64,000 nucleotides of DNA from Maritimibacter dapengensis. Lineage in GTDB: Bacteria; Pseudomonadota; Alphaproteobacteria; Rhodobacterales; Rhodobacteraceae. Where the stretch lies: the NCBI RefSeq assembly GCF_019218265.1, contig NZ_JAHUZE010000001.1:372001-436000 (forward strand), read 5' to 3'. Each line of letters opens with the position of its first letter. The first letter of the stretch is position 1. The notes beneath the pieces are model-generated. The model made no database searches. It saw nothing but the letters and a program-made list of their open reading frames with translations, and had not been told where the DNA came from. The position numbers and the translations under genes are program-made. Positions 41,107-59,469 of the stretch are shown here, piece by piece.

Positions 41107-41427
41107 TCAGCCTTGCGGCTGCTGCTGGACCGACGTGTCGCAGGCGCGCAGACCATCCTGGTCGGCGACATTGCGGATCACGCTCTCCCGCTCCTCGCTG
41201 GAGCCGGCTGCGTTGAAGTAGTCGATTTCGGTAGTCGTCATACGCGCCGTAACGCAGACCGCGAATTCCTCGCGCTCCGATTCCGCGAGGAACTGTTTCG
41301 AATCCAGTTCCGCGAGGAAAGTTGCCTTGGCTTCGGCACGATCCGCTTCCGGCTCGGACGAGTCGTAGGCGAGGGCCGGCGCGCTCAGGGCGAGCAGCGC
41401 GAGGGGAAGAATGATGACACGTTTCAT
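41107..41427 (-). CDS. Small secreted protein encoded between sdhA and sdhB
   Basis: The 106-residue product starts with a clear Sec signal peptide ([20 protein letters not shown], 1-20). The mature part is acidic, with two cysteines (in [10 protein letters not shown] and GLRACDTS) that could form a disulfide. No family is recognised. GAGGA seven bases upstream supports this start rather than the longer open frame. It lies within the sdh operon, so co-expression with complex II is expected; whether it helps assembly or maturation of the complex is unknown. Confidence 0.65.
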
Positions 41428-41712
41428 GTCTTGACGTCCTCGTTTCATACGCGGACCTGACAGGAGTGAAACGACCGTGCCCGTCAATCCCTCGACGACG
41501 GGTTTGTAACAGGTCGCCGTTCCGACCCAAGCAGCAGGCCGAAACGTGCGCGGCGACCGCCGCGTCGGTCCACCGCACCCCACGAGGCCCCGTCATGGAG
41601 CCCCGCAACATAGGGGTATTGCAGCAGAATACGGCGGAAATTGCCTTCAAACGTGGCTTTTCCGAGACCTGTGGACCAGCGCACCCTGGGGTATGTCCGA
41701 GGACATTGCGCA

Positions 41713-43518
41713 TCAGAACGTGCGGGCCTTCGGTGCAATCTTCTTCAACGCGATGCCGCCTGCATCTTCGGTCGTCAGCGGGTCGAGGATCACCGGGCGA
41801 TAGCTCAACGCCACCTTGTTGCCTTCGACACGTGCGATGGTGTGCTTGCGCCATTCGTCGTCGTCGCGCGAGGAATGATCCTCGGACGCATGCGCGCCCC
41901 GGCTTTCCTTACGCGCTTCGGCGCCGGTGATGGTGGCAAGCGCGTTGGGCATGAGGTTCGTCAGTTCCAGCGTTTCCATCAGGTCCGAGTTCCACACGAG
42001 GCTGCGGTCGGTCACTTTGAGATGGTCCAGCTTGGCGGCGATGTCGGTCATTTTGGCGACGCCGGCTTTGAGGGTTTCGTCAGTGCGGAACACCGCTGCG
42101 TCTTCCTGCATCGTGCGTTGCATTTCTAGGCGAAGATCGGCGGTGGGCGTGCCACCGCTGGCGTTGCGCAGACCGTCGAACCGCTCGAGAGCCTTGTCGA
42201 TTTCCGAAACACGCGGCGTCGGCACGGAACTGTTGCGGTCGACCACGTCGCCCGCGCGGATGGCGGCGGCCCGGCCGAACACGACAAGGTCGATCAGCGA
42301 GTTGGACCCGAGCCGGTTCGCACCATGAACACTCGCGCAGCCAGCTTCGCCCACTGCCATGAGCCCCGGCACGACTGCATTTGGATCGTCCTTGGTCGGG
42401 TTCAGAACCTCACCGTAATAGTTGGTCGGGATACCGCCCATGTTGTAATGCACGGTCGGCAGAACCGGGATCGGTTCCTTCGTGACGTCCACGCCTGCAA
42501 AGATCTTTGCGCTTTCCGAAATGCCCGGAAGCCGTTCGGCGAGCGCTTCGGCAGGCAGGTGGCTGAGGTTCAGGTGGATGTGGTCGCCGTTCTCGCCCAC
42601 ACCACGGCCCTCGCGGATTTCCATGGTCATCGAGCGGGACACGTAGTCGCGCGGGGCGAGGTCTTTGTATTGGGGCGCGTAACGCTCCATGAACCGTTCG
42701 CCTTCGGAATTGGTGAGATACCCACCTTCGCCGCGTGCGCCTTCGGTGATAAGGCAGCCGGAGCCATAGATACCGGTCGGGTGGAACTGGACGAACTCCA
42801 TGTCCTGAAGCGGCAGGCCGGCCCGCGCCACCATACCGCCACCGTCGCCGGTGCAGGTGTGGGCGGAGGTCGCCGAGAAATAGGCGCGGCCATATCCGCC
42901 GGTGGCCAGCACGACCATCTTGGCAGCGAAAACGTGCATCGTGCCGTCATCGAGCTTCCAGCACAGAACGCCTTCACACTTGCCGTCCTCCGACATGAGA
43001 AGGTCGATAGCGAAATACTCGATATAGAACTCTGCGTTGTTCTTGAGCGACTGGCCGTAAAGCGTGTGCAGGATCGCGTGGCCGGTCCGGTCGGCGGCGG
43101 CGCAGGTGCGCTGCACCGCGGGGCCCTCACCGAACTCGGTCGTGTGGCCGCCAAAGGGCCGCTGGTAGATTTTGCCTTCTTCGGTGCGCGAAAACGGCAC
43201 GCCGTAATGCTCGAGCTCATAAACGGCGGCGGGCGCTTCGCGGGCGAGGTATTCCATCGCATCCGTGTCGCCGAGCCAGTCGGAGCCCTTCACGGTGTCA
43301 TACATGTGCCACTGCCAGTTATCCGGACCCATGTTCGACAGCGAGGCGGCGATTCCGCCTTGTGCGGCGACCGTGTGCGAGCGCGTCGGAAACACTTTGG
43401 TCACACAGGCGGTCTTCAGCCCCTGTTCGGCCATACCCAATGTGGCACGCAGGCCAGCACCGCCAGCACCCACGACAACAACGTCATATTCGTGCGTTTC
43501 GTATTCGTATTCAGCCAT
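41713..43518 (-). CDS. sdhA: Succinate dehydrogenase flavoprotein subunit SdhA
   Basis: Catalytic FAD subunit of complex II, 601 residues, oxidising succinate to fumarate. Visible signatures are the N-terminal dinucleotide site [28 protein letters not shown] with the His that binds FAD covalently, [23 protein letters not shown] with the catalytic Arg region, [10 protein letters not shown], and [27 protein letters not shown]. It starts 12 bases after the sdhD stop. The 285 bases between it and the small secreted protein gene belong to the operon's interior and hold nothing else I can identify. Confidence 0.96.
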
Positions 43519-43530
43519 GTCTTATGTCCT

Positions 43531-43908
43531 TCAGGCGCCCAGCGAGATGCGGATCACGGCGTAGGCGCCGATCAGTGCGAACAATGTCGAAAGCAGCCGC
43601 ATGGCGATGATGAGGATCATCCCGAGCCGGCCATGCACATAGTCTTCGATCACCACTTGCACGCCCTGAAAAAAGTGCAGGGACACGGTCACGAAAAAGG
43701 CGATCGCGATGACGGCGTTGACCGGATGGGCATAAGCCGCCCGGACTTCTTCATACCCGTCACCCAGATTGTATGCGAAGGGCAGGACGAAAAGCGGCAC
43801 CAGAAAGAGAAGCGCGATGGCGCTCAGCCTTTGTTCCCAGAAATGCCCGGTGCCTTGTTTGGCCGAACCCAGGCCTTCGACGCGTTTGCGGTCGGTCAGA
43901 AATCTCAT
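43531..43908 (-). CDS. sdhD: Succinate dehydrogenase membrane anchor SdhD
   Basis: Membrane anchor subunit of 125 residues with three predicted helices (about 28-46, 62-83 and 94-122). His78 in LHFFQGVQVVIEDY and the Asp89-Tyr90 pair match the haem and quinone-binding region of SdhD. TTGGAGG five bases before the ATG sets the start; a TTG four codons earlier is part of that ribosome site. It begins one base after the sdhC stop. Confidence 0.88.
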   Translation of the reverse strand: MRFLTDRKRVEGLGSAKQGTGHFWEQRLSAIALLFLVPLFVLPFAYNLGDGYEEVRAAYAHPVNAVIAIAFFVTVSLHFFQGVQVVIEDYVHGRLGMILIIAMRLLSTLFALIGAYAVIRISLGA

Positions 43909-43909
43909 C

Positions 43910-44302
43910 TTAGCCTCCAATCGCGATCCAGAGTGTGATGATCGTCATCACGACCATGAAGGCCAGTCCGATCATCGCGGACCGGTTCGAAGCCTTCTGC
44001 CCCAGGTGGCTGCCCGTGTCCCAGACGAGGTGCCGCACACCGTTGGCGAAGTGCAGCCAAAGCGCGACGGTCGACAGGGTGAAAACCAGTATTCCGAACC
44101 ATGATGTCAGAACGGCGCTCGCCGTCTCGAAGTATTCCGGTCCGGTCGCGAGTGCGAGGAAATACCAGACGATGAGGATGGCCGCGAAAGCCAGCGCGAC
44201 GCCCGTGATGCGGTGCAGGATCGAAAGCTTGGCATTCAGGGGGAGGCGATAGACTTGAAGATGCGGCGACAGCGGACGCGTTTCGTTGCTGACGTTGGCC
44301 AT
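43910..44302 (-). CDS. sdhC: Succinate dehydrogenase cytochrome b556 subunit SdhC
   Basis: Membrane subunit of 130 residues with three helices (about 30-52, 62-86 and 108-128). Diagnostic motifs are RPLSPHLQVYRL, SILHRITGVAL (quinone site) and HFANGVRHLVWD, in which His84 is the expected haem ligand. It is the first gene of the sdh operon. Its upstream region contains two copies of a TGTGATCACA-type palindrome shared with the sucC promoter region, plus an inverted repeat closer to the gene. Confidence 0.92.
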   Translation of the reverse strand: MANVSNETRPLSPHLQVYRLPLNAKLSILHRITGVALAFAAILIVWYFLALATGPEYFETASAVLTSWFGILVFTLSTVALWLHFANGVRHLVWDTGSHLGQKASNRSAMIGLAFMVVMTIITLWIAIGG

Positions 44303-44393
44303 GGCTCTTCCTTCGTAGCTATTGGCGGTTGCGGCATACCAATACGCATATCGTGGCGAGAGTCACGTGGGGATTGGACAAAAAGCGGTGCGG

Positions 44394-44412
44394 TGAACGC
44401 TAACGGCGTTCA
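44394..44412. promoter_or_regulatory. Inverted repeat TGAACGC-TAACG-GCGTTCA upstream of sdhC
   Basis: A perfect 7-bp inverted repeat with a 5-base spacer, 92 to 110 bases before the sdhC start. It could be a leader hairpin in the sdh mRNA or an operator. It lies between the tandem palindromes and the gene. Confidence 0.35.
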
Positions 44413-44423
44413 AAAATCCATCT

Positions 44424-44454
44424 TGTGATCACATTTTGCGGGCTAGTGATCACA
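44424..44454. promoter_or_regulatory. Tandem TGTGATCACA palindromes upstream of sdhC
   Basis: The first copy, TGTGATCACA, lies at 44424-44433 and the second, AGTGATCACA (one mismatch at the edge), at 44445-44454. Their centres are exactly 21 bp apart, two helical turns. A partial copy TGTGATCT sits at 44463. The same palindrome pair with the same spacing lies before sucC. Two dimers of one regulator could bind side by side. The protein is not identified. Confidence 0.7.
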
Positions 44455-44478
44455 AAAATTCCTGTGATCTGGGCATTC

Positions 44479-45279
44479 CTATCTCAATTCCCGCGCCCGC
44501 GATGCCAGATCGTTCGCAAGCTCGGTGCAAATCTGGATTTCCGCGTAATCCGGGTCGTAATAGGCGTTGGATTGGCCACAGGGGATAACGCTCACGTTGA
44601 TCGTTGCCGGAAGCTGTATCGTTGCGTTCACCTCGTCCACGACACTGGTCACGAACCGGGCGAGATGGCTTTCGGGTTCAGCCACCCAATCCATGCGCAG
44701 GCTATTACCCGGCGTGCTCGTTGCATGAGCGTCAAGCACGATGCCCCAGGCACGGGCCGTCTGTTCGTATTCGTCTTTACAGGTTTCGACCCGCTCTTCC
44801 GGTAGCGACGAAAGCTGGAGAATATCGCGACGTGTGTCCGGACCGGAGCCGTAAACCATGCATGAGAAGTTGTAGTAGCGTTGCAGGTCCGGGCCATGCA
44901 CGTCCCACAGGTCGAGATCGCCGACGGTCTGGCCAGAGCGGTCGGCGAACCAAAGGTAATTCGCTGCAATCAAGGGAGCCATCTGCATGATCTCGCCATC
45001 GCTGTGAAGCCGGTTCATCATCACCACCGCGAACATGTCGGCGGCATATTCCTCCGGCCCGTAAATCGGGAGGTCGATGGCGTCGATCAGCGCGTGGGCG
45101 AGTTCATGATACAGCGTTTCGGCAACGTTCGCTTCGACATAGGACAGGACCGGATCGCGCCGTGCGGCGTCCTGTTGGGTCGGCGGTATTCGAGCGCGCG
45201 TGTACGTGTCCTTCGACGACTGCCCCACAGCGGGCAGGGCGAAAGCGAGGCTCAGAAGGATCGCAGAGGTCGCGCGCAT
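44479..45279 (-). CDS. DUF4344-family putative metallopeptidase
   Basis: The 266-residue protein has a signal peptide (1-20, ending AVGQ) and the zinc-binding motif HELAH at 58-62, with Glu77 in EEYAAD as a possible third ligand. This fits DUF4344 putative metallopeptidases, periplasmic proteins of unknown substrate. Four cysteines in the C-terminal part may form disulfides. It follows mch by seven bases and is the last gene of the mcl2-nnrU-DUF1737-mch operon, although nothing in the sequence ties it to that pathway. Confidence 0.75.
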   Translation of the reverse strand: MRATSAILLSLAFALPAVGQSSKDTYTRARIPPTQQDAARRDPVLSYVEANVAETLYHELAHALIDAIDLPIYGPEEYAADMFAVVMMNRLHSDGEIMQMAPLIAANYLWFADRSGQTVGDLDLWDVHGPDLQRYYNFSCMVYGSGPDTRRDILQLSSLPEERVETCKDEYEQTARAWGIVLDAHATSTPGNSLRMDWVAEPESHLARFVTSVVDEVNATIQLPATINVSVIPCGQSNAYYDPDYAEIQICTELANDLASRARELR

Positions 45280-45286
45280 GGCGCAA

Positions 45287-46321
45287 TCAAGTCGGCATGA
45301 GCGCCCAGTAGTCAAGGTCGAGCAGCACGTGAGACAGGTATTTGCCGTTCTCACCCTTCAGCGCAAAGTCGTAATGCGCGTCCTTCGTGGCCACGAGCCG
45401 CAGTCGCACCGCACCAACGCCGGGCGCATCCGTCTGGGCCTTGTCCAGCACCTCGGACCACGCGCGCACCGTGTCACCGGCAAAGCAGGGATTGGCATGG
45501 GCGCCCCCGTTCAGCCCCACGATCATCTGCGCATTTGCAAGCCCGTTGAAGGACAATGCGCGCGCCATCGAAATCACATGGCCGCCGTAGATCAGCCTCT
45601 TGCCGTCTTCGCGGTTCGTCGCGTCGAAATGCACTTTGGCGGTGTTCTGCCACAGCCGCGTCGCCGACATGTGCTCGGCTTCCTCGATGGTCACACCGTC
45701 CACGTGGTCGATCTTCTCGCCGATCTCATAGTCGCCCCAACGATGCCGCTCGCCCGCGAGCGTGAAATCGTATTGCCCGAAATCCAGGCCTTCGGGGATC
45801 ACAAGGTCCGACGCCTCGAGCGCCGGCTTCAGTTCGGGGATCAGCGTGTCCGCAGCGTCGGCGTCGAGCCGGTTTTTGCGCACCATGACCCAGCGGATGT
45901 AATCGAGCACCGGTTCGTCATGCTGGTTGTAGCCGGTCGTCTGCACCCAGACCACGCCGGACTTGCCGTTGGAATTCTCTTTCAGTCCGATCACTTTGGA
46001 CTCCGAGCGCAGCGTGTCGCCCGGCCAGACAGGTTTCAGCCACCGGCCCTCGGCATAGCCCAAGTTCGCGACCGCGTTCAGCGACACGTCCGGAACGGTC
46101 TTGCCGAAGACGACGTGAAACGCCGCGAGGTCGTCGATCGGTGCCGCGTCCAGCCCACAGGTCTGAGCGAACGCATCCGAGGAATACAGTGCATGACGGG
46201 CCGGGTAGAGCGCGTGATACAGTGCGCGTTCGCCCCCCGACACCGTGCGCGGCACGGCGTGCCGGATCACTTCTCCGATGCGGTAATCTTCGAAGAAGCG
46301 GCCCGAATTGGTCTTGGTCAC
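45287..46321 (-). CDS. mch: Mesaconyl-CoA hydratase (MaoC family)
   Basis: Two-domain MaoC-type hydratase of 344 residues. In Rhodobacter this enzyme hydrates mesaconyl-C1-CoA to methylmalyl-CoA in the ethylmalonyl-CoA pathway for acetate assimilation. The start GRFFEDYRIGEVIRHAVPRTVSGGERALYHALYPARHALYSS and the second-domain segments DYEIGEKIDHVDGVTIEEAEHMSATRLWQNTAKVHFDA fit the family. The start is a GTG, with GGGAGAG nine bases upstream inside the end of the DUF1737 gene. The malyl-CoA lyase homologue in the same operon supports the call. Confidence 0.85.
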   Translation of the reverse strand: MTKTNSGRFFEDYRIGEVIRHAVPRTVSGGERALYHALYPARHALYSSDAFAQTCGLDAAPIDDLAAFHVVFGKTVPDVSLNAVANLGYAEGRWLKPVWPGDTLRSESKVIGLKENSNGKSGVVWVQTTGYNQHDEPVLDYIRWVMVRKNRLDADAADTLIPELKPALEASDLVIPEGLDFGQYDFTLAGERHRWGDYEIGEKIDHVDGVTIEEAEHMSATRLWQNTAKVHFDATNREDGKRLIYGGHVISMARALSFNGLANAQMIVGLNGGAHANPCFAGDTVRAWSEVLDKAQTDAPGVGAVRLRLVATKDAHYDFALKGENGKYLSHVLLDLDYWALMPT

Positions 46322-46322
46322 C

Positions 46323-46526
46323 TTAATGCTCTCCCAGCTTGATGTCGGGGTGGTATTCGCCCGGCGCGTCCTTGGTCACGGCCTGCCCGCAACGCATCAC
46401 GCCATTGGCTGCGTCGAAGGCATATGTCGGCGAGCCGTGCAGCGACCAGCCCTTGTTCAGGGCTTGCGTGACCTTGTGGCAGAACTCGGACGTGTCGTCG
46501 GCCGAGAGGAAACGATAGAGTTTCAT
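46323..46526 (-). CDS. DUF1737-family small protein
   Basis: A 67-residue protein of the DUF1737 type: MKLYRFLSADDTSEFCHKVTQALNKGWSLHGSPTYAFD is the family signature. These small soluble proteins have no established role. It lies between nnrU and mch, nine bases after the former, so it is co-transcribed with the ethylmalonyl-CoA genes. Its reading frame ends inside the ribosome-binding region of mch. Confidence 0.75.
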   Translation of the reverse strand: MKLYRFLSADDTSEFCHKVTQALNKGWSLHGSPTYAFDAANGVMRCGQAVTKDAPGEYHPDIKLGEH

Positions 46527-46535
46527 GGCTGCTCC

Positions 46536-47081
46536 TTATCCGAAGGCCGGGTAGCCGAACCAGTAATGCGCCCAGGCAATCAGGCCGAAGACCACGATCG
46601 CGCCGACGATCGCGCCGATCTCCTTGCCGACCGGGAAGGGCCCCGTCGATTTCTCAGGCTTGGCCTGCTTGTTGATCAGGATGACCTCGACCACGGCCCA
46701 GGCCAGAAGACCGCCAAAGAGGACAAAAGACGGGATATCGCCGTTCACGAGGATATGTGCCAGCGCCCATGTCTTAATGCCGGTCAGTTGCGGGTGTCGG
46801 ATCTTGGAGGTGATCCAGGTTTTCATGCCCGAGGCGGCGAACAGGTAAACGGCCAACAGGTTCAGGATGTTGTTGATCCCCACCGTCGCCGGGTGGCGGC
46901 CCCAAAGCACAGCGCCGTCCGCCATACGGTAGCCGATCACCATCAGCACGACACCGGCGACCACGCCGAGTGCAACCATACCCTTCGCGGCGTCTCCCAT
47001 ATCCGCGCGTTTGGCCGGGGCAATACGTTTGAACAGATGCGCGGCTGACCAGAGCAGCACGCCGATGATGAGAACGATCAT
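46536..47081 (-). CDS. nnrU: NnrU-like membrane protein
   Basis: Integral membrane protein of 181 residues with about five helices (about 1-15, 34-52, 68-85, 108-130 and 150-172) and the family segment RHPQLTGIKTWALAHILVNGD. NnrU was named from denitrification clusters, and homologues occur without denitrification genes, as here. It starts three bases after the malyl-CoA lyase homologue stop. Why it is in this operon is not clear from sequence. Confidence 0.8.
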   Translation of the reverse strand: MIVLIIGVLLWSAAHLFKRIAPAKRADMGDAAKGMVALGVVAGVVLMVIGYRMADGAVLWGRHPATVGINNILNLLAVYLFAASGMKTWITSKIRHPQLTGIKTWALAHILVNGDIPSFVLFGGLLAWAVVEVILINKQAKPEKSTGPFPVGKEIGAIVGAIVVFGLIAWAHYWFGYPAFG

Positions 47082-47084
47082 GGC

Positions 47085-47939
47085 TTATCCTTCCAGATTG
47101 GCGATGGCCTCCGCTTTCGCAAGCAGCGCCTTCGCCGTCACGATATGCAGATTCTCCACGATCTTTCCATCCACGACCGCAACGCCCTGACCCGAGGCCT
47201 CGACCGCGTCGAAGGCTTCGATCTGGCGGCGCGCGAGGTCGATGTCGGCCTTTGAGGGTGCGAATACTTCGTTGGTGATGTCGATCTGGGCAGGGTGGAT
47301 CAACGTCTTGCCGTCAAAGCCGAGGTCGCGGCCCTGTCCGCATTCGAAACGCAGGCCGTCGTCATCCTTGAAGGCATTGTAAACCCCATCGACGATGCAG
47401 GCGCCTGCGGAGCGTGCGGCGATGAGCGACATCTGAAGCGCGGTCTGGATTTCCGGGCGACCTGCCGAGACACGGCACCCGAGCTCCTTCACAAGGTCGT
47501 TGGTCCCCATGACGATGCCTGCGAGCCGCGGATGCCCCGCGATTTCGCGCGCGTTCAACACGCCTTCCGGCGTTTCCATCATGGCCCAGAGCGGCACGTC
47601 GGGGATCATCTGGGCGAGCGTTTCAAGGTCATAGGCGGAATTGACCTTGGGAAGCAGCAGGGCGTCGATGTCTGCACCATCCATGGCTTCGACGTCCTGA
47701 CGACCCCAGACCGTGTCGAACCCATTGATCCGCACGATCTTCATCCGTTCGCCATAGCCCCCCTTGTCGAGCTCAGCGCGAAGCGTGGCGCGGGCCGCAT
47801 CCTTGGCGTCCGGCGTGACCGCGTCCTCGAGGTCGAAGATGATCGCGTCGGCGGCGAGCCCGCGGGCCTTGTCCAACGCCCGTTCTTTCGAGCCGGGAAT
47901 GTAGAGGACGGAGCGAACGGGGCGCGTCGATTGGGTCAT
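47085..47939 (-). CDS. mcl2: CoA-ester lyase homologue, probable (3S)-malyl-CoA thioesterase (Mcl2)
   Basis: The 284-residue protein belongs to the HpcH/HpaI aldolase/CitE superfamily. RSVLYIPGSKERALDKARGL, AIIFDLEDAVTPDAKDAAR, MMETPEGVLNAREIA and TLIHPAQIDITNEVFAPS are its catalytic and CoA-binding blocks. Rhodobacter has a longer malyl-CoA lyase (Mcl1) and a shorter malyl-CoA thioesterase (Mcl2) that is encoded near mch; length and neighbourhood favour Mcl2 here, but a lyase cannot be excluded. AAGGGAAG upstream supports the start. It is the first gene of the minus-strand operon. Confidence 0.75.
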   Translation of the reverse strand: MTQSTRPVRSVLYIPGSKERALDKARGLAADAIIFDLEDAVTPDAKDAARATLRAELDKGGYGERMKIVRINGFDTVWGRQDVEAMDGADIDALLLPKVNSAYDLETLAQMIPDVPLWAMMETPEGVLNAREIAGHPRLAGIVMGTNDLVKELGCRVSAGRPEIQTALQMSLIAARSAGACIVDGVYNAFKDDDGLRFECGQGRDLGFDGKTLIHPAQIDITNEVFAPSKADIDLARRQIEAFDAVEASGQGVAVVDGKIVENLHIVTAKALLAKAEAIANLEG

Positions 47940-48236
47940 GATTCTTCCCTTTGGTAATATTGTTGCGTGAAGGAACAACGCTGCGCACGAAATGGCAACC
48001 CAAAATGCGCCGCAGTGCAGAAACGGTTATTGTGAACTTTCCGCCGAACGGCGCGTTAACCATACGTAAGGAAACCTTCGAGCAAAGTTTCCCTACAGGC
48101 CGGGCGTCTGGTGCCCAATGATGGCGCACCATCGCAACCGATTGTTCGGAGCGTGGACGGGAACCGCACGGCATGACCCTGGGTCCACCGCTGGGGAGCC
48201 GGTGACGCGGTCGGACCCGACCGAAAGGACGAACCC

Positions 48237-48551
48237 ATGAACCGGACGACCAAGACCTTCTGCGCGGCTCTCTGCGCGCTCGCCGCCACCGGCGGCACCG
48301 CTTCGGCCCAATCCCACAATTGCGCACCGCGCGACGATGTCGTCGGTCGCCTGTCGGAACAATTCGGAGAGGCGCGGCAATCCATCGGTATGACCAGCGG
48401 CAATCGTGTGGTCGAGATGTATGCTTCGCCCGATACCGGCACATGGACGATCACCATGACCTTGCCCACAGGCATCACATGCATCATCGGTGCTGGGCAG
48501 GCCTGGGAGCGTCTGGACGAAGAAGCGACGCCTGCCGGCCAGCCCATCTGA
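48237..48551 (+). CDS. Small secreted protein of unknown function
   Basis: The 104-residue product has a signal peptide (MNRTTKTFCAALCALAATGGTASA, cleavage about 24). Two cysteines remain in the mature chain (HNCAPR and ITCIIG) and could pair. No family is recognised. GAAAGGAC lies seven to nine bases before the ATG. It is divergent from mcl2 across 297 bp and ends three bases before the converging TauE-type exporter gene. Confidence 0.65.
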   Translation: MNRTTKTFCAALCALAATGGTASAQSHNCAPRDDVVGRLSEQFGEARQSIGMTSGNRVVEMYASPDTGTWTITMTLPTGITCIIGAGQAWERLDEEATPAGQPI

Positions 48552-48554
48552 CGC

Positions 48555-49307
48555 CTAGGTCAAAGCATCCCAGATCAGCTTAGTCCCGGTCGCGATCAGA
48601 AGCGCGTAGGTGATCGCGAAATAGACCCGCTCGGGCATGACATCATGCAGCTTCACGCCCAGCCAGACGCCGAACACGGCGACCGGGATCAGCATGACAT
48701 CCGCCTTGATCGTCTGCCACGAGAAGATGCCGAGGAAGACATAAGGCACGAACTTCATCAGGTTGATCGCCCAGAACATCAGAACCGTCGTCGCCTGATA
48801 GGTCGTCTTGTCGATCTGGCGCGACAACAGGAACACCGCGGCCGGCGGCCCGCCGGCGTGGCTGACAAAGGATGTGAAGCCGCCGATCGCGCCCGCGATC
48901 CCGCCACCGAATTGACCCATAGGTGCTCTTGCTGGCCGCAACACGCCTATTTTCCGGGCAAGCTGGAACAGGACGAACCCGATCGCGACCGCGCCGATCA
49001 GGAGCCGAAACAGGTCCGGGTCGGCCCAGCGATAGAGCAGCGCGCCCAGCAGAACGCCGGGCGCAGCGCCAAGGATAAACACCCACGCCGCCGGTCCGTC
49101 CCATTTCTTCCAATAGGGTTTCAGCGCCGTCACATCCATCAGCATCAGGAGAGGCAACATCAGGCCAATCGCCTGACCAGGCTCGAGAATCAGAGCCAGC
49201 AGAGGGGTCGCCGCGAATGCTGCGCCCGACCCGAAACCGCCCTTCGAGACGCCCGCGAAAATGACGGCCGGGATCGCGATGGCGAAGAATGCCAGGTCAA
49301 TTTCCAC
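48555..49307 (-). CDS. TauE/SafE-family (DUF81) membrane permease
   Basis: A sulfite/anion exporter family protein of 250 residues with about eight hydrophobic helices in two repeats, each beginning with a Gly-rich loop (SKGGFGSGAAFAATPLLAL and GGIAGAIGGFTSFVSHAGGPPAAVFLL). The start is GTG. The family exports sulfite, sulfoacetate and other small anions, but the substrate here is unknown because no sulfur-metabolism gene lies next to it. Confidence 0.8.
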   Translation of the reverse strand: MEIDLAFFAIAIPAVIFAGVSKGGFGSGAAFAATPLLALILEPGQAIGLMLPLLMLMDVTALKPYWKKWDGPAAWVFILGAAPGVLLGALLYRWADPDLFRLLIGAVAIGFVLFQLARKIGVLRPARAPMGQFGGGIAGAIGGFTSFVSHAGGPPAAVFLLSRQIDKTTYQATTVLMFWAINLMKFVPYVFLGIFSWQTIKADVMLIPVAVFGVWLGVKLHDVMPERVYFAITYALLIATGTKLIWDALT

Positions 49308-49445
49308 GCTGTCTCTCGCCCCCGAAGTGTCTGAACGCCTTGACCTTTAGCGGTATCATTCATTGCTGCAACCGCAAAATGCGCCCGTCCCGGCCCTTGA
49401 TCACCGCTCTTATCGGGTCTAGGCAGCGATCCAGTGAAAACCTGA

Positions 49446-50423
<978 letters not shown>

Positions 50424-50443
50424 GCCCTTACCACGGTAAACAC

Positions 50444-51493
50444 TCATGCAGGGGTCGGATCGCTTCCGGCCCCTGTTTCGTCCAGCCCGGCGAAAAGCGT
50501 CGCATACCTCGCCATCACCTCGGGCTCGCGCGAAGCAAGCGCCCGGTCGAACGCGGCAGGAGACAGATCGACGTCGATCCCGAGCCCTTGCAAGGCGGGG
50601 CGAGGGTCGAACGGTGTCTCGCTGAGCAACCCGAGGGCGTTGAGCGCGTCGATCTGGTTCGGCCCGAGCTTCTTCACACCATCGTAGAACATCGCCACGC
50701 GCTGGGGTGCTTCGGCGTTGGCCTTCAGGAACATGATCTGGCGATGTCGGAATGACCCGTCAGGCCCCTGCGGGTTCATGAAGTGAGCCTGATCCACCCG
50801 CCTTAGCATCTTCATGACGTAATGCCTCCGCGTGAGCCCGTCGAAATGCAGCAGGGCATCGTCGAGTTTGACCTCGCTCTCGAGCACGGTGCCTCCGGGT
50901 ACGTCGCGTGCGTCGTGGATGTCATGGCGGAAACGCGGGCCCGCACGGAGCATGACCTTTCCCACGAGATGACCGGACAGGCCATAGCCTAGAAATTTCG
51001 CCCACCGCCCGAAATACCGTTCGCCGTGCTTCCAGTAGTCCCAGTCGCGGCGGCGGAAGACACCGTCGAAAATATGCGCCGACATCGTGTCACGGCGTTC
51101 TGCTCGCTCCATGACGCGAAGCCGGATCACATGCGTTTCCGGGTCCACGTCCCTGATCGCCGCCCCTATCTGTGCACCATCCGTGACGAACTCGTCCGCA
51201 TCGGAATGCAGCAGCCAGGTGACGGCCGATCGGGCGCGCGCATGTTCGGCATTCTGTATCTGTCGTCCGGTCTGGCGGTTGCGCCGATTGCCACCATGCG
51301 CGCGTTGCCAGTAGGCGGGGTCGCAGGTCGTGACGTGGACGCCGGGAAGTGATGCGACGACCGCCTCGGCCTCGGGGTTCGGGCGGTCGAAATAGAGATG
51401 TATTTCTGACGCGCCTTGCGCCAGATGCCAGCCGGCGAAGGCGATGATGAGCGGTGCAGGTTCGTCCACGGTCGCGACGATCCCCCAGCTCAT
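50444..51493 (-). CDS. Glycosyltransferase family 2/92-like protein
   Basis: The 349-residue protein opens with MSWGIVATVDEPAPLIIAFAGWHLAQGA, a strand-helix start common to glycosyltransferases with the Glyco_tranf_2_4 domain, and has the metal-binding DADEF motif in WLLHSDADEFVT (about residue 100). A conserved LLHFDGLTRRHYVMKML segment lies near residue 220. Its start overlaps the end of the upstream paralogue (ATGA), and the two are likely co-translated. The sugar and acceptor are unknown; surface polysaccharide decoration is probable. Confidence 0.75.
   Translation of the reverse strand: MSWGIVATVDEPAPLIIAFAGWHLAQGASEIHLYFDRPNPEAEAVVASLPGVHVTTCDPAYWQRAHGGNRRNRQTGRQIQNAEHARARSAVTWLLHSDADEFVTDGAQIGAAIRDVDPETHVIRLRVMERAERRDTMSAHIFDGVFRRRDWDYWKHGERYFGRWAKFLGYGLSGHLVGKVMLRAGPRFRHDIHDARDVPGGTVLESEVKLDDALLHFDGLTRRHYVMKMLRRVDQAHFMNPQGPDGSFRHRQIMFLKANAEAPQRVAMFYDGVKKLGPNQIDALNALGLLSETPFDPRPALQGLGIDVDLSPAAFDRALASREPEVMARYATLFAGLDETGAGSDPTPA
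50449..50478 (+). terminator. Terminator of mdh, inside the converging gene
   Basis: CAGGGGTCGGA pairs with TCCGGCCCCTG (11 pairs, one of them G-U) over the 5-base loop TCGCT and is followed by TTT. It starts 26 bases after the mdh stop and lies within the last codons of the minus-strand glycosyltransferase gene. Confidence 0.65.
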
Positions 51494-52551
51494 GTTCCCA
51501 CCCTTCGCTTCGCGCGGCGTTTCTGGCGGACGATGGCCTGCGACCGCAACGACAATTCCCGCGCATGCAAACGGTCGAAGCCCGCCGCCGAAAAATCCAT
51601 ATCGAGGTGTGGCGCGATCTTCGCGACGGCGCCGGCGATATCGATGTCGGGTTCGTAAAGCAGACCGGCGTCAGCCAAAGCCCGTGCCTGTTGATGATCG
51701 AGCCGATAGAGCGCCTCGTGAACTCTGACGGCCGCACGCTCCGGGTCCGGTGCACGAAGTATCGCGCCGATCGTCGCCATGCGTTCGCGGTTCAGAAGCT
51801 CGTTCATGGCCGCGCCCTGTGCTGCGTATCGCAGGTTCTTGAGCGCCCAGTGGCGGGGCGTGATCCCGTCGAAATGGAGTATCCGGGCCGACTCAGCCGT
51901 TTTCGAGGGCCTCGGAACGCCGCCTTCCGTATCGCGTAACTTGTGTATGGCTAGGAAACCCTTACCTCTTCGCGCCATGGCTTTTCCGGCAGAATAGCCC
52001 CCCAGGCCGGCAGACAGCGCCTTCGACCGCTGTCCGTATACGGAATGAGCGAGATCGTGCCGCCCGGTCATAGGCCCGCGAAAAACGCCCTCGAACATGT
52101 CGTCACCATAAGTGTCGAGCCAGCAGCGTTCAATGTTGGGAATGTGCAACCAGTCCGCCGCATCGGTCACCTGCGCAAGTTCGTCTCCCAAAGGTTGTGG
52201 GAGCCACAGGAATTCATCCGCGTCCACATGCAGGAGCCAATCCGACCGGCTTTGCTCGAATACGTAATTAGCGTTTAAGGTCTGACGCTTAGTCTGCGTT
52301 CTTGGGGGTGACCTGTAGCCGAACTGGGCCCAGTGGCCGGCATCGCACAGCGTGACCTCCACGCCCGGAATCTCCTGCGCAACGCGCGCTGCCGGGTCAT
52401 CGGGCAGATCGAAAAACAGGTGGACTTTCTGTGCGCCTTGGGCCAGGTGATGGCATGCAAATGCAACCACTAATTGTGCCGGTTCACGAAGCGTGGAAAC
52501 GACGCTCCATTGCGGCTCGCGACCCGCGTCTGATGGAATGGGCTGCTCCAA
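51490..52551 (-). CDS. Glycosyltransferase family 2/92-like protein (paralogue)
   Basis: Same architecture as its neighbour: WSVVSTLREPAQLVVAFACHHLAQGA at the N-terminus, DADEF in WLLHVDADEFLW, and ILHFDGITPRHWALKNL. The start is unclear. The frame opens to 52671, with ATGs at 52671 and 52647, but alignment to the neighbouring paralogue puts the natural N-terminus near the TTG at 52551 (about 353 residues), which also leaves room for the promoter of the divergent TetR gene. Tandem duplication is likely. It overlaps the downstream paralogue by four bases. Confidence 0.7.
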   Translation of the reverse strand: MEQPIPSDAGREPQWSVVSTLREPAQLVVAFACHHLAQGAQKVHLFFDLPDDPAARVAQEIPGVEVTLCDAGHWAQFGYRSPPRTQTKRQTLNANYVFEQSRSDWLLHVDADEFLWLPQPLGDELAQVTDAADWLHIPNIERCWLDTYGDDMFEGVFRGPMTGRHDLAHSVYGQRSKALSAGLGGYSAGKAMARRGKGFLAIHKLRDTEGGVPRPSKTAESARILHFDGITPRHWALKNLRYAAQGAAMNELLNRERMATIGAILRAPDPERAAVRVHEALYRLDHQQARALADAGLLYEPDIDIAGAVAKIAPHLDMDFSAAGFDRLHARELSLRSQAIVRQKRRAKRRVGT

Positions 52552-52673
52552 GATGAGACACTTGCAATCAAAAAGTTGCGGCACCCTAGGGCGGTTTAGT
52601 ATGCTGTGTCCACAAGCCGTGCTGGGCGCGACGCGGCAGAACGCCATGAGTTGGCACGAGAAAAGGGACAAAC

Positions 52674-53243
52674 ATGACGGTCAAGCGCAGGGCAGACTTC
52701 GCAGAAAATAGAATTCGCATCCTGGATGCGGCACATGAAATCTTCGTCGAGGAAGGTGTGGGCGCACCTCTCGATGCCATAGCCAAAAGGGCGGGCATCG
52801 GTCGCGCGACGTTTTTCCGACATTTTCCCGACCGTCGTGCTCTGATCAATGAAATGCTCGATCTCTTTCTGGTCAAACTCGAAGCCACCGCTTCGGAAAC
52901 GCCAGCCCGGGGACAGGCCCTTTTCGGCTTGGTGCGTCACTTCTTCGACGCCATGATCGCGCATGCGCCGATCGCCGACTACCTTCGCTCGCAAAGCCGC
53001 GAGGATCCGGCTCTGCTCGATGCGATCGACAGATTCAACGCCCTTCTGAAGCCGCATGTGTCTCGGGCAATCGACGAGGGCCTCGTCGGCCCAGAACTTC
53101 GCACCAACGACATCGTCATATCGGCGGTGATGCTTTCGGCGGCCGCCACGACACCGAATATCGGTCCGGAGGGTCGCAGACGCGCGTATGAGGTGGTTTT
53201 TGCCGGTCTGAGACAGACCGAGCGTGCCCACGCCATAGCCTGA
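52674..53243 (+). CDS. TetR/AcrR-family transcriptional regulator
   Basis: The 189-residue protein has a TetR-type helix-turn-helix at about 28-62 (APLDAIAKRAGIGRATFFRHFPDRRALINEML) and an all-helical ligand domain behind it. The start has AAAGGGAC ahead of it. It is divergent from the two glycosyltransferases and lies upstream of sucC. It could regulate either itself or the glycosyltransferases; its ligand is unknown. Whether it binds the TGTGATCACA pair downstream of its own gene is an open question. Confidence 0.85.
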   Translation: MTVKRRADFAENRIRILDAAHEIFVEEGVGAPLDAIAKRAGIGRATFFRHFPDRRALINEMLDLFLVKLEATASETPARGQALFGLVRHFFDAMIAHAPIADYLRSQSREDPALLDAIDRFNALLKPHVSRAIDEGLVGPELRTNDIVISAVMLSAAATTPNIGPEGRRRAYEVVFAGLRQTERAHAIA

Positions 53244-53297
53244 CATCAGGCTCCAAAAACGAATCCGGCCCCGCGGCGTCACGTCGTGGGGTCTTTT

Positions 53298-53328
53298 TGT
53301 GATCACACCATTTCTGCTTGTGATCACA
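53298..53328. promoter_or_regulatory. Tandem TGTGATCACA palindromes upstream of sucC
   Basis: Two perfect copies of TGTGATCACA, at 53298-53307 and 53319-53328, have centres exactly 21 bp apart and lie 107 to 137 bases before the sucC start. In gene orientation both this region and the sdhC region begin with TTTTTGTGATCAC. The zero-spacer palindrome differs from CRP (TGTGA-N6-TCACA) and FNR sites. The regulator is unidentified. Confidence 0.7.
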
Positions 53329-53434
53329 GAGGCGGCAAATATCGCGCTAATTGGCGACCATTCACAGAAATCCGTTTAAACCTGCCCTCACATGTGCAAC
53401 GTGCCATGCGAACGCAACCAGATGGGACGAGTTC

Positions 53435-54628
53435 ATGAACATCCATGAATATCAGGCGAAGGCGCTCCTTCGTGAATACGGTGCCCCGGTCTCCGATGGC
53501 CGTGTCGTGACGAAAGCCGACGAAGCCAAATCGAAGGCGGGCGAAATGGACGGGCCGCTCTGGGTCGTCAAGGCGCAGATCCACGCAGGCGGTCGCGGCA
53601 AGGGCTCCTTCAAGGAAGAGAGCGCGGGCGAAAAAGGCGGTGTCCGTCTTGCCAAGTCGGTCGAAGAGGCCGCCGAAGAAGCCAAGAAGATGCTCGGTCG
53701 CACGCTGGTGACGCATCAGACCGGCCCGGCGGGCAAACAAGTCAACCGCATCTATCTCGAAGACGGCTCGGACATCGAGCGCGAGCTTTACCTCGCGCTG
53801 CTCGTCGACCGCGTGACATCGCGCGTGTCCTTCGTCTGCTCCACCGAAGGCGGGATGGACATCGAGGAAGTCGCAGCCTCCACGCCCGAGAAAATCCTCT
53901 CCTTCTCCGTCGACCCCGCGACCGGCTACCAGCCGTTCCACGGGCGCCGCATCGCGTTCTCGCTCGGTCTCGAAGGACAGCAGATCAAGCAATGCGTGAA
54001 ACTGATGGGTCAGCTCTACCAAGCCTTCATCGAGAAGGACATGGAGATGCTGGAGATCAACCCGCTGATCGTCACCGACGAAGGCAACCTCAAGGTGCTC
54101 GACGCCAAGCTGGGCTTCGACGGCAACGCGCTCTATCGCCAGCCCGACATCGCCAACCTCCGTGACGAGACCGAAGAAGACCCGAAAGAGCTCGAGGCGT
54201 CGAAATACGACCTGAACTACATCGCGCTCGACGGTGAAATCGGCTGCATGGTGAACGGCGCGGGCCTCGCCATGGCGACGATGGACATCATCAAGCTCTA
54301 CGGCGCCGAACCGGCCAACTTCCTCGACGTCGGCGGTGGCGCCACGAAAGAGAAAGTGACCGAGGCGTTCAAGATCATCACCTCCGACAAGAACGTCAAA
54401 GGCATCCTCGTGAACATCTTCGGCGGCATCATGCGGTGCGACGTCATTGCCGAAGGCGTGGTCGCAGCAGTCAAGGAAGTCGGGCTTCAAGTGCCGCTCG
54501 TCGTTCGTCTGGAAGGCACCAATGTCGAAAAGGGCAAGGAGATCATCAATACCTCCGGCCTGAACGTCATCGCGGCCGACAATCTGTCGGACGGTGCCGA
54601 GAAAATCGTGAAAGCGGTGAAAGGGTAA
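53435..54628 (+). CDS. sucC: Succinyl-CoA synthetase beta subunit
   Basis: ATP/GDP-forming succinyl-CoA ligase beta chain, 397 residues as expected. [22 protein letters not shown] is the family N-terminus; the ATP-grasp region has [15 protein letters not shown], and the C-terminal part has [13 protein letters not shown] and [15 protein letters not shown]. The frame is open 28 codons further upstream without family sequence. It heads the suc operon, but its partner sucD is separated from it by a sulfotransferase-like gene. Confidence 0.95.
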
Positions 54629-54726: not shown

Positions 54727-55476
54727 ATGGTGATGACGTTGCCTGTCCACGAACTCGTTTATGTGGCGGTGCCGCTCTGTGCGAGCACATCCGCCAAGGC
54801 CTCCATGTATGGGCTGATGATCCAGCACAACTACGAGGGTTTGAAACGGTCGGGCGAACCGATCCCGATGCATGTGCATTACCCCTATCGCGCCCTGCGC
54901 CCGACGGATTACGGCACGATGGACGACCCCTTCGTCTTCACCGTCATTCGTGATCCGCTCGAGCGTTTCCTGTCGCTCTGGTCCTACAAGGTGATGACCG
55001 AGAAGCGCATCGTCACGGCCAATACCAAACGCCGCAAGGATCGCCACGGTTTGCTGCGCGGTGCGGTGATCGACATCGTGAAACTCGACAAGTTGCCGAC
55101 GGCGACACCCTCGCTCGAGCAATTCGTGATGGAGTTCGACGCGTATTCGGCACGTTACGGGTTTCTCGACCAACTCATGCGTCCTGTCAGCGAGTTTCTG
55201 GGCGACGACCTTTCGGTCTATCACGAGATCTACACGATGGACCGCATCCCCGAGTTGGAAGCGACCATTCGTGAACGGACGGGCGTGGCGGAATACTACA
55301 TCCCAAAGGTCAAGGCGACATCGGCCGAACACCAAGTCTCGCCCGACGATCTTTCCGACCGGGCCTTCGACAGTCTGATGGAACGGCTGGAACCGCATTA
55401 CGCGGAGATGCCCGACCATTTCTCGCGACCGGATCGCGCTTCCCGCGCCGGCACCCATACGAAGAAGGCGAGCTGA
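54727..55476 (+). CDS. Sulfotransferase-like protein inserted between sucC and sucD
   Basis: The 249-residue protein resembles the carbohydrate sulfotransferase (Sulfotransfer_2) group. The 3'-phosphate-binding motif FTVIRDPLERFLSLWSYKV is clear; the 5'-phosphosulfate loop is PLCASTSAKASMYG, less canonical than the usual PKxGST. If active it would move sulfate from PAPS to a sugar or small molecule, but the weak loop leaves this open. GGAGGTGAAGG precedes the ATG. It sits 98 bases after sucC and 59 before sucD in the same orientation, so it is expressed with TCA genes. Confidence 0.65.
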   Translation: MVMTLPVHELVYVAVPLCASTSAKASMYGLMIQHNYEGLKRSGEPIPMHVHYPYRALRPTDYGTMDDPFVFTVIRDPLERFLSLWSYKVMTEKRIVTANTKRRKDRHGLLRGAVIDIVKLDKLPTATPSLEQFVMEFDAYSARYGFLDQLMRPVSEFLGDDLSVYHEIYTMDRIPELEATIRERTGVAEYYIPKVKATSAEHQVSPDDLSDRAFDSLMERLEPHYAEMPDHFSRPDRASRAGTHTKKAS

Positions 55477-55535: not shown

Positions 55536-56420
55536 ATGGCCATTCTCGTTGATGAAAACACCAAGGTGATCTGCCAGGGCTTCACCGGCTCGCAGGGCAC
55601 GTTCCACTCCGAACAGGCCATCGCCTATGGCACGAAAATGGTTGGCGGCGTGACCCCCGGCAAAGGCGGTCAGACGCATCTCGACCTGCCGGTGTTCGAT
55701 AGCGTCCACGAAGCCAAGGCCAAGACCGAAGCGAACGCATCGGTCATCTACGTTCCGCCGCCCTTCGCGGCAGATTCGATCCTCGAAGCCATCGACGCCG
55801 AGATGGAGCTGATCGTGTGCATCACCGAAGGCATCCCGGTCCTCGACATGATGAAGGTCAAGCGCGCGCTGATCGACAGCAAATCGCGCCTGATCGGGCC
55901 GAACTGTCCGGGCGTCATCACGCCGGACGCCTGCAAGATCGGCATCATGCCGGGCCACATCCACAAGCGTGGTTCGGTCGGGGTCGTGTCGCGCTCCGGT
56001 ACGCTCACCTACGAAGCGGTGAAGCAGACCGCCGACATCGGGCTGGGCCAGTCGACCGCCGTGGGCATCGGCGGCGACCCGATCAAGGGAACCGAGCATA
56101 TCGACGTGCTCGACATGTTCCTGGACGACGATGAGACGCAGTCGATCATCATGATCGGTGAAATCGGCGGCACTGCCGAAGAAGAAGCCGCCGAGTTCCT
56201 TGCCGAACAGCGCAAGAAAGGCCGGTGGAAGCCGGTCGCAGGCTTCATCGCCGGGCGCACCGCCCCTCCGGGCCGCCGCATGGGCCACGCTGGCGCAATC
56301 GTGTCTGGCGGTCAGGGCGATGCCGAGTCCAAGATCGAGGCCATGAAATCGGCCGGTATCGTGGTGGCGGACAGCCCCGCGACGCTGGGCGAAGCGGTGC
56401 AGGAAGCCATCGCGAAGTAA
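55536..56420 (+). CDS. sucD: Succinyl-CoA synthetase alpha subunit
   Basis: The alpha chain has 294 residues and carries the phosphohistidine: [17 protein letters not shown] contains the active-site His. CoA-binding and family signatures are [53 protein letters not shown] and [18 protein letters not shown] is six bases before the ATG. With SucC it makes succinate and ATP from succinyl-CoA. Confidence 0.95.
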
Positions 56421-56481: not shown

Positions 56482-59469
56482 ATGACGGACCAAAGCCCTA
56501 ACGACCAGTTCCACGCCTCTTCTTTCATGCAGGGGCAAAACGCCGAATATCTCGAACAGCTCTATGCGCAATATGCCAATGACCCGAACGCGGTCGACGC
56601 AGCGTGGCAGGAGTTCTTTCGTGCCCTTGGCGATACCGAGGTCGAGGTCAAACGCGAGGCGCAAGGTCCGTCCTGGATGCGCACCGACTGGCCGCCGCAG
56701 CCCGATGACGAACTGACCCATGCGCTCGATGGCATGTGGCCCGCCGAACGCCCGTCAGTGTCTGAAGCCGATCCCAAGGACCTTGCGAAAAAGATCGCGG
56801 ACAAGGCGAACAACAAGCAGGTCGAGATTTCCGAAGACGCGATCAAACGCGCCGTGCTGGACTCGGTGCGTGCGCTCATGATTATTCGGGCCTATCGCAT
56901 CCGGGGTCACCTGATCGCCGACATCGACCCGCTCGGTATGCGCGACAAGACGCCCCATCCGGAACTCGACCCGAAAAGCTACGGGTTTACCGAAGCCGAC
57001 ATGGACCGCCCGATCTTCATCGACAAGGTGCTGGGGCTCGACGTCGCTTCGATGCGTCAGATCATCGAGATCGTCCAGCGCACGTATTGCGGTACGTTTG
57101 CGCTGCAATACATGCATATTTCCGACCCGGAGGAATCCGGCTGGCTCAAGGAGCGGATCGAGGGCTTCGGCAAGGAGATCACCTTTACCCGCGAAGGCCG
57201 CCGCGCCATTCTGAACAAGTTGGTCGAGGCCGAGGGCTTCGAGAAGTTCCTCCATGTCAAATACATGGGCACCAAGCGGTTCGGCCTGGACGGGGGCGAA
57301 GCGCTCATCCCGGCGATGGAGCAGATCATCAAGCGCGGCGGTAGTCTCGGCGCGAAAGAGATCGTCGTGGGTATGCCTCACCGTGGTCGTTTGAACATCC
57401 TCGCCAACGTCATGGCGAAACCCTATCGCGCGATTTTCAACGAGTTTCAGGGCGGGTCGTTCAAACCCGAAGACGTGGACGGGTCGGGGGACGTGAAATA
57501 CCACCTCGGCGCGTCCAGCGACCGGGAATTCGACGGCAACAATGTGCACCTGTCCCTGACCGCGAACCCCTCGCACCTCGAGGCGGTGAATCCCGTGGTA
57601 CTGGGCAAATGCCGGGCCAAGAGCCAGCAGCTGGGCGACGAGGACCACACGCAGGTCATCCCGATCCTGCTCCATGGTGACGCGGCCTTCGCCGGTCAGG
57701 GGGTCGTGGCCGAATGTTTCCAGCTTTCGGGCATTCGCGGCCACCGCACCGGCGGCACCATGCATATCGTGGTGAACAACCAGATCGGCTTCACCACCGC
57801 GCCGCATTTCTCGCGCACCTCGCCTTATCCGACGGACATCGCGCTGATGGTCGAGGCGCCGATCTTCCACGTGAACGGAGACGATCCCGAGGCCGTGGTC
57901 CATGCCGCCAAGGTCGCGACGGAATTCCGCCAGAAATTCCACAAGGACGTGGTCATCGACATCTTCTGCTACCGCCGCTTCGGTCACAACGAAGGCGACG
58001 AGCCGATGTTCACAAACCCGGAGATGTACAAACAGATCAAGACCCACAAGACGACGCTTCAGCTCTACACCGAGCGGCTCGTGCAGGACGGTCTGATTCC
58101 GGAAGGCGAAATCGAAGACATGAAGGCGGCGTTTCAGTCGCACCTCAACGAGGAATTCGAGAGCGGCAAGGAATACAAGCCGAACAAGGCCGACTGGCTC
58201 GATGGCCGCTGGTCTCACCTGGACAAGCAGGGAGAGGATTACCAGCGCGGCGAAACCGCTATTTCCAAGAAGGCGCTGGAAGAGGTCGGCAAGGCGCTGA
58301 CCACCGCGCCGGAAGGTCTTGTGACGCACAAGACCGTCGGGCGGCTCCTCGAAAGCAAGGCCAAGATGTTCAAGAGCGGCAAGGGCTTTGACTGGGCCAC
58401 CGCGGAAGCGATCGCGTTCGGCTCACTTCTGACCGAGGGCTACCCGGTCCGGCTCGCCGGGCAGGATTCCACGCGCGGCACGTTTTCGCAGCGCCATTCC
58501 GGGATTGTCGATCAGAACACCGAGGAACGCTATTACCCGCTGAACAACATCAAGGCGGGTCAGGCGCGGTATGAAGTCATCGACTCGATGCTTTCGGAAT
58601 ACGCGGTGCTCGGTTTCGAATACGGCTTTTCGCTTGCCGAGCCGAACGCGCTCACGTTGTGGGAAGCACAGTTCGGCGACTTCGCAAACGGCGCGCAGAT
58701 CATGTTCGACCAGTTCATTTCGTCCGGTGAATCGAAATGGCTCCGCATGTCCGGCCTCGTCTGCCTGCTGCCCCATGGCTACGAAGGGCAGGGGCCGGAG
58801 CACTCCTCGGCCCGCCTCGAACGGTTCCTGCAAATGTGCGGTGCCGACAACTGGATCGTGGCCAATTGCTCGACCCCGGCGAACTACTTCCACATCCTGC
58901 GGCGGCAGCTTCACCGTTCCTACCGCAAACCGCTGATCCTGATGACGCCGAAGTCGCTCTTGCGCCACAAGCTCTGCGTCTCCGATGCGGCGGATTTCAC
59001 CAAGGGTTCGTCTTTCCACCGCATCCTGTGGGACGATGCCGACCGCGAAAACGGCACGGGCCGGTCGGAAAACAAGCTGAAGGAAGACAAGAACATCAAG
59101 CGCGTCGTGATGTGCTCCGGCAAAGTCTATTACGACCTGCTCGAAGAACGCGACAACCGCGGGATCGACGATGTCTACCTTATGCGGCTCGAGCAATTCT
59201 ACCCGTTCCCGGCTCTGAGCCTCGTAAAGGAGCTTGAGAGGTTCCCGGACGCCGATGTCGTCTGGTGTCAGGAAGAACCGAAGAACCAGGGCGCCTGGAC
59301 CTTCGTCGAGCCGAACATCGAATGGGTGCTGTCGCGTATCCGCAAGGATGGCTCGCGCCCGATCTACGTGGGGCGCGCGGCCTCGGCCTCGCCGGCGACG
59401 GGCCTTGCCAGCCAGCACAAAGCACAACAACAGGCGCTCGTGAATGACGCGCTGACCATCGAAGGATAA
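56482..59469 (+). CDS. sucA: 2-oxoglutarate dehydrogenase E1 component
   Basis: Thiamine diphosphate-dependent E1 of the oxoglutarate dehydrogenase complex, 995 residues, normal length. The N-terminal segment [21 protein letters not shown]-like region, [31 protein letters not shown] and [11 protein letters not shown] (ThDP and Mg binding), [19 protein letters not shown] and [23 protein letters not shown] are all conserved. It is followed four bases later by sucB. Confidence 0.95.

Follow-up and report, generated by a model that had tools for sequence, protein, structure and literature searches.

The closest described counterpart of the system treated here is the AkgR regulon of Rhodobacter sphaeroides. 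AkgR (RSP_0981) is a GntR-family protein, termed a transcriptional activator, with the published motif GTGATCAC (PMC6365646), and its predicted targets are RSP_0967-6 (succinyl-CoA synthetase), RSP_0974-6 (sdh) and RSP_0965-62 (2-oxoglutarate dehydrogenase) (PMC4344238). The same palindrome has been reported for a member of the same family with 32% identity to AkgR, the GntR-like PS417_07240 of a Pseudomonas deoxyribonate cluster, which differs in serving another pathway and in having its site at -47 to -40 of its own cluster (PMC6365646). CceR (RSP_1663), a separate, LacI-family protein of central carbon metabolism, has the predicted motif GTT N6 AAC, and both sdh and mdh are predicted CceR targets (PMC4344238). 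Here we analyse 64,000 nucleotides of Maritimibacter dapengensis (contig NZ_JAHUZE010000001.1, positions 372,001 to 436,000; hereafter the window), in which one pair of palindromes precedes sdhC and a second pair precedes sucC, and we conclude that these pairs are very probably operators of AkgR, a protein with GntR and FCD domains. The abstract of Imam et al. 2015 (mBio 6:e02461-14) reportedly describes direct activation of tricarboxylic acid (TCA) cycle genes by AkgR.

The window contains GTGATCAC exactly four times, at 44425, 44446, 53299 and 53320, and all four copies fall within the two pairs; this bears out the earlier note on this DNA, which had described tandem palindrome pairs 21 bp apart before sdhC and sucC, with four copies at these positions and no further copy in the window. 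The 10-mer TGTGATCACA is perfect at three of the sites, and the fourth copy, AGTGATCACA, carries one edge mismatch. At sdhC the putative AkgR operators are a promoter-proximal member (TGTGATCACA, 44424..44433), assigned by motif match and family conservation, and a distal member (AGTGATCACA, 44445..44454), whose centre is 21 bp from that of the proximal one; at sucC they are a distal (53298..53307) and a proximal (53319..53328) member, both matching the motif as TGTGATCACA. No strand is assigned to any of them. The centre-to-centre spacing is 21 bp in both pairs, the near 8-mer lies 122 bp (sdhC) or 107 bp (sucC) from the start codon, and in gene orientation both pairs read TTTTTGTGATCAC, in agreement with the common start noted before.

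A lone 8-mer GTGATCAC is not rare, with a mean of 1.5 in shuffled sequence and four copies reached in 5 of 100 shuffles, and the signal therefore lies in the pairing. Scanning the whole 3.96-Mb genome, a check that the earlier note had proposed, returned the sdhC and sucC pairs as the only two exact pairs at 21 bp, the next best having two mismatches; arithmetic from the shuffle mean gives a chance expectation of about 0.002 pairs per genome at one fixed spacing. A reversed control pattern had no match genome-wide even when three mismatches were allowed, a lenient control because it contains CTAG, which is a rare word in many bacteria. An Rfam search of five loci gave no match up to E 0.1. A lone TGTGATCACA between zapE and folC (G000:C1:150539) was set aside, as an alignment of four genomes suggested a conserved reading frame on the opposite strand that encloses it.

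The pairs are kept in relatives, one of two points on which the earlier note had let its proposal hang. All eight genomes of the genus that were searched (this one included) hold exactly two pairs with 13-bp spacers that are unlike one another, so that the sites and their spacing are kept and the DNA between them is not. Among 149 genomes of the family, one per genus, a pair with a spacer of 2-30 bp occurs in 133, and the reversed control in none. A sample of the order, all of it inside the same family, has pairs in 120 of 121 genomes, with a control match in one genome, and in a sample of the class a pair at spacers of 11-14 was found in 3 of 189 genomes outside the family (G270 and G384, which are of one genus, and G427). 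Nor are the pairs scattered, the second point: 343 loci contain 203 exact pair occurrences at 20-21 bp, of which 198 precede sdhC or sucC, the other five being at L142, L143, L230, L280 and L322. These 198 collapse to 88 distinct sdhC and 96 distinct sucC promoters, and the centres are 21 bp apart in 77 and 89 of them, respectively, and 20 bp apart in the rest; the set was limited to exact pairs with a spacing of 20 or 21 bp, from loci mostly fetched for holding a pair, so that its counts are not prevalence. As to other spacers, the 75 places listed, counted by hand, comprise 64 with 13 bp, four with 12 and seven others (10, 10, 16, 19, 19, 23, 23), and no query gene lies alongside the pairs of L027, L032 and L033 (spacers 19, 10 and 23) or of L228 of G143 (spacer 23). 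A functional three-turn version with centres 31 bp apart was dropped because the loci with odd spacers are without query genes alongside. Four named sucC loci lack a pair but are uninformative, with no more than 110 bp of sequence before the gene.

Which protein binds these pairs? The TGTGA and TCACA halves are those of a CRP half-site, and a CRP/FNR-type protein could thus be considered. CRP sites have a spacer of 6 bp between half-sites and FNR sites one of 4 bp, whereas here the half-sites abut, as the earlier note had pointed out in setting CRP and FNR aside; we regard a protein of this type as most improbable. A second candidate is the product of the gene immediately before sucC (52674-53243), a TetR-family gene that ends 54 bases before the sucC pair. 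In five further genomes of the genus this gene also adjoins sucC (67-82% identity), so that it looks like a genus-level gene, and at E<=1e-15 a relative was found among the 149 family genomes only in the window's own genome, compared to pairs in 133. As a general regulator the TetR protein is refuted, and there is hardly any chance that it governs the pairs.

AkgR fits far better. Its orthologue, with GntR (PF00392) and FCD (PF07729) domains, is encoded at G000:C1:436668-437351, 668 bases past the end of the window and beyond lpd. Orthologue matches in the 149 genomes are separated by a gap, with E <=7e-55 and identity >=47% on one side and weaker matches from E 6e-49 up on the other. Presence of the pair (spacer 2-30) and presence of the orthologue agree in 143 of these genomes, which represent 149 genera and were tallied by hand: 130 have both and 13 have neither (G011, G015, G021, G024, G028, G036, G055, G061, G066, G090, G108, G109 and G116), giving a Fisher p of 1.8e-13, uncorrected for relatedness.

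The genome that we label G058 ties these data to the described system. It holds a published R. sphaeroides chromatin immunoprecipitation (ChIP)-site sequence at C4:2222951, within the published peak chr1 2222600-2223600, and is thereby identified as R. sphaeroides. Its gene order, lpd, sucB, sucA, sucD, sucC, mdh, then sdhC, sdhD, sdhA, sdhB and an AkgR orthologue on the opposite strand, fits the locus tags RSP_0962 to RSP_0981. The protein encoded beside sdhB is 74% identical to the orthologue of the present genome, and pairs precede both sucC and sdhC. In a search of named genomes with the G058 orthologue, Cereibacter ovatus (94%) was closest among the best 80 loci. The two systems thus share the regulator family, the motif GTGATCAC, the sdh and suc targets and two 21-bp pairs, and they differ in genus and in the place of akgR, which lies beside sdhB in R. 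sphaeroides and beyond lpd here. The earlier note was apt in proposing one regulator for both TCA operons, which fits the evidence; it had regarded that regulator as not known, and here it has to be amended, since the regulator is very probably AkgR, for which the motif and the sdh and suc targets have been published in R. sphaeroides.

Several points weigh against this assignment. A pair without a detected orthologue occurs in G026, G103 and G121, and an orthologue without a pair in G047, G129 and G154; four of these six discordant genomes are rated 73-91% complete, but for G047 and G121 the rating is 100%. The threshold for calling an orthologue (E 1e-54) was chosen after the match list had been seen, and the presence/absence profile covered akgR alone among the GntR paralogues. 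Could another GntR/FCD paralogue bind the pairs instead? The genome has 13 GntR-domain matches, 11 of them above the Pfam cut-off, a 21-bp pair precedes the gene for a G384 GntR/FCD protein with 31% identity to AkgR, and the palindrome recurs at the 32% relative from Pseudomonas; the motif is therefore shared within the subfamily. On the other hand, it is the akgR orthologue that tracks presence and absence of the pair closely, adjoins the target operons and has a site of its own. We consider a paralogue very unlikely, and AkgR remains the preferred regulator.

The position of the pairs relative to the promoters bears on how AkgR would act. For sdhC, conservation points to a promoter at 44339..44366 on the minus strand (GTGACT, 16 bp, TATTGG), corresponding to CGTGACac..TAttaA in relatives; the first base of GTGACT is 62 bp from the proximal operator centre, which would lie near -96 by the usual numbering if this predicted promoter is correct. 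A scan of 44250-44500 with a generic sigma-70 consensus found no sdhC promoter. For sucC, a putative promoter block (53372..53405, plus strand, ends approximate), likewise recognised by conservation, lies some 48 bp away from the centre of the proximal operator and reads CgtTT .. tGTGCcAt.aC in relatives. Across the promoter set, the distance from proximal centre to block at sdhC is 50-53 bp in 4 promoters, 60-64 in 69, 71-74 in 8 and 83 in 1, and no value falls between these groups (82 of 88 promoters); at sucC it is 37-38 bp in 12 and 47-49 in 56, followed by single cases at 60, 69 and 99 (71 of 96). The 6 sdhC and 25 sucC promoters without a significant block were left out of these counts. 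When [CG]GTGAC[AT] was looked for as a plain string, 75 of the 88 sdhC promoters had it, again at about 51-55, 61-65, 72-75 and 84.

When the shifted cases were placed at random, none of 20,000 placements was as well phased to 10.5 bp for either operon. On trees of SdhC and SucC, which were quick and are rough because the proteins are short, the 13 shifted sdhC promoters require 13 changes and the 15 shifted sucC promoters also 13, so that the shifts are mostly independent. As a control, the promoter-to-ATG distance at sdhC is unphased (R 0.10 vs 0.87), and at sucC the outliers of this distance are without phase (mean cosine -0.01 vs 0.91). Thus, the distance between pair and promoter changes mostly by whole turns of DNA, which supports a face-dependent contact with RNA polymerase; if an upstream activator touches RNA polymerase directly, its rotational setting is expected to be constrained and its distance is not. 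In class I activators such as CRP, which act from an upstream site, the distance to the promoter can likewise change by whole helical turns. The AkgR pairs share this whole-turn variation and differ from CRP in regulator family, in the double site and in phase.

The phasing is not without blemish. The best period is 11 for sdhC (0.80, compared to 0.76 at 10.5) and 10 for sucC (0.92, compared to 0.91), and the promoter-to-ATG distance at sucC has an R of 0.51 because most values are nearly constant. The sucC shift at 69 (L195) is spurious, as a third, one-mismatch site lies nearer the promoter, and the case at 99 is far from any mode.

Taken together, two AkgR dimers would occupy neighbouring sites on the same DNA face, separated by two turns of the helix, with the conserved promoter block about 60 bp (sdhC) or 48 bp (sucC) further downstream, and from that face AkgR would activate transcription of sdh and suc by touching RNA polymerase. 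The spacing data speak well for the side-by-side dimers on one DNA face that the earlier note had envisaged. Might the pairs instead be sites at which AkgR represses sdh and suc? Many FCD-type GntR proteins are repressors, and the akgR site lies at akgR's own promoter. In contrast, the sdh and suc pairs lie upstream of the promoter blocks (37-83 bp from the proximal centre, with one at 99), in phase with them and not over them, and AkgR is termed an activator (PMC6365646). Repression at these operons is accordingly unlikely in our estimation, and activation is preferred. We are confident in the tandem-pair model as judged from sequence, with activation from one DNA face and autorepression in some genomes. 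A broader reading, to which we give about an even chance, is that sdh and suc promoters in most genera of the family follow a rotational grammar, in which tandem AkgR dimers, RNA polymerase and perhaps a CceR-like operator would share one face at a free number of turns, with AkgR repressing akgR from a single site in part of the family.

Autorepression is suggested by a single site close to the akgR promoter. In this genome TGTGATCACA sits 7 bases before the akgR start codon, with TTTTGTGATCACAAAGAGCCATG at the gene start. Exact GTGATCAC occurs in 34 of 107 distinct akgR upstream regions (0.3 expected) and a one-mismatch match in six more; akgR matches with <60% identity, <230 bits or <120 bp of upstream sequence had been dropped from this set. 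In the 33 regions that have both site and TTGAC, the site starts 17-20 bases after TTGAC, and exactly 18 in 26 of them. As the site falls between a -35-like element and the start codon, AkgR may repress its own gene, in this genus and for about one third of the akgR genes examined. Against a wider claim stand the 73 of 107 regions without an exact site, so that autorepression is not general; R. sphaeroides (G058) is among those with none, another difference from the present genome.

The region beside the pairs may hold a further operator. At 44393..44404 (no strand assigned) lies the CceR-like palindrome GTGAACGCTAAC, which has two mismatches to GTTAGCGCTAAC, is the only match within two mismatches in the window and is a candidate for CceR binding. 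GTTAGCGCTAAC, which fits the CceR motif and was picked by eye from the promoter alignment, is found next to the pair, with up to three mismatches, in 61 of 184 promoters (62 matches, compared to a shuffle mean of 9.8 and a maximum of 14), and it ranks first in number among 180 palindromes generated by permutation of its half-site. The strict motif [AGT]GTT N6-8 AAC[ACT] is barely enriched, being present in 8 of 88 sdhC and 7 of 96 sucC loci compared to 5.1 and 5.0 in shuffles. Within three mismatches, GTTAGCGCTAAC is also enriched before mdh (5 of 14 vs 0.7), and it is unenriched before sucD (0 of 20), sucA (3 of 24 vs 1.8), lpd (0 of 35), akgR (1 of 49) and sdhB (0 of 7). The positions of GTTAGCGCTAAC look periodic, but control palindromes with at least eight downstream matches have a median R of 0.56; downstream, 3 of 60 other palindromes score higher than GTTAGCGCTAAC, and upstream it ranks first of 19. 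As its apparent phasing does not clearly exceed that of the controls, we claim enrichment for GTTAGCGCTAAC and not phasing.

The sdh operon runs on the minus strand from sdhC (43910..44302, TIGR02970), its first gene, through sdhD (43531-43920) and sdhA (41713-43518) to sdhB (40167-40946), with an open reading frame without a Pfam match between the last two (41107-41583, minus strand). On the plus strand, sucC (53435..54628, NF001913, ATG at 53435) opens the second target operon and is followed by sucD (55536-56420), sucA (56482-59469) and sucB (59474-61009); past the window end come lpd and then akgR on the opposite strand. The names of sdhD, sdhA, sdhB, sucD, sucA and sucB were given by sequence recognition. 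A sulfotransferase-family open reading frame on the same strand (54727-55476; PF03567, E 2.7e-11) splits the usual sucCD pair.

Sites of this type were also seen in other settings. Triple tandem sites in 21-bp steps precede sucC at L241 (G142:C8:374318-374367), L173, L182 and L195, the third site of L195 having one mismatch. At L230 (G049:C16) a 21-bp AkgR-type pair lies before a class II fumarase gene (Lyase_1, FumaraseC_C), another TCA step, and G049 seems to have added another TCA gene to its presumed AkgR regulon. The 21-bp pair of L142, which lies before the gene for the 31% relative in G384 (a genome of another family), suggests that tandem sites also serve this distant relative of AkgR. 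Finally, a lone TTTTTGTGATCAC stands directly before a CTTGCGAG..CCCCAT block, which we take to be heat-shock sigma-32-like, about 110 bp before clpB in five or more of the eight genus genomes (G000:C4:26422 (L111), L350, L369, L370 and L371); this site might link AkgR to a heat-shock promoter, or it might belong to some other conserved element.

The regulator, its motif and its sdh and suc targets are already known, and the tandem layout across the family, the rule of whole turns and the single akgR site are refinements. These three features were not found in the literature searched, which left out the primary AkgR paper; in their accessible text, PMC4419725, PMC11323563, PMC5507952, PMC8557541, PMC5343134 and PMC7471390 hold nothing on AkgR beyond citation or make no mention of it. 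For the two TCA operons of the window, a named regulator now takes the place of an unnamed one, and the AkgR regulon, so far known from one model species, is extended to most of the genera sampled in the family. A quantitative rule is gained as well, a 21-bp pair at a whole-turn distance from the promoter. To our knowledge, the activation mode of FCD-type GntR proteins has been little studied, and if the rotational grammar is true, a protein of this type would be a face-dependent tandem activator.

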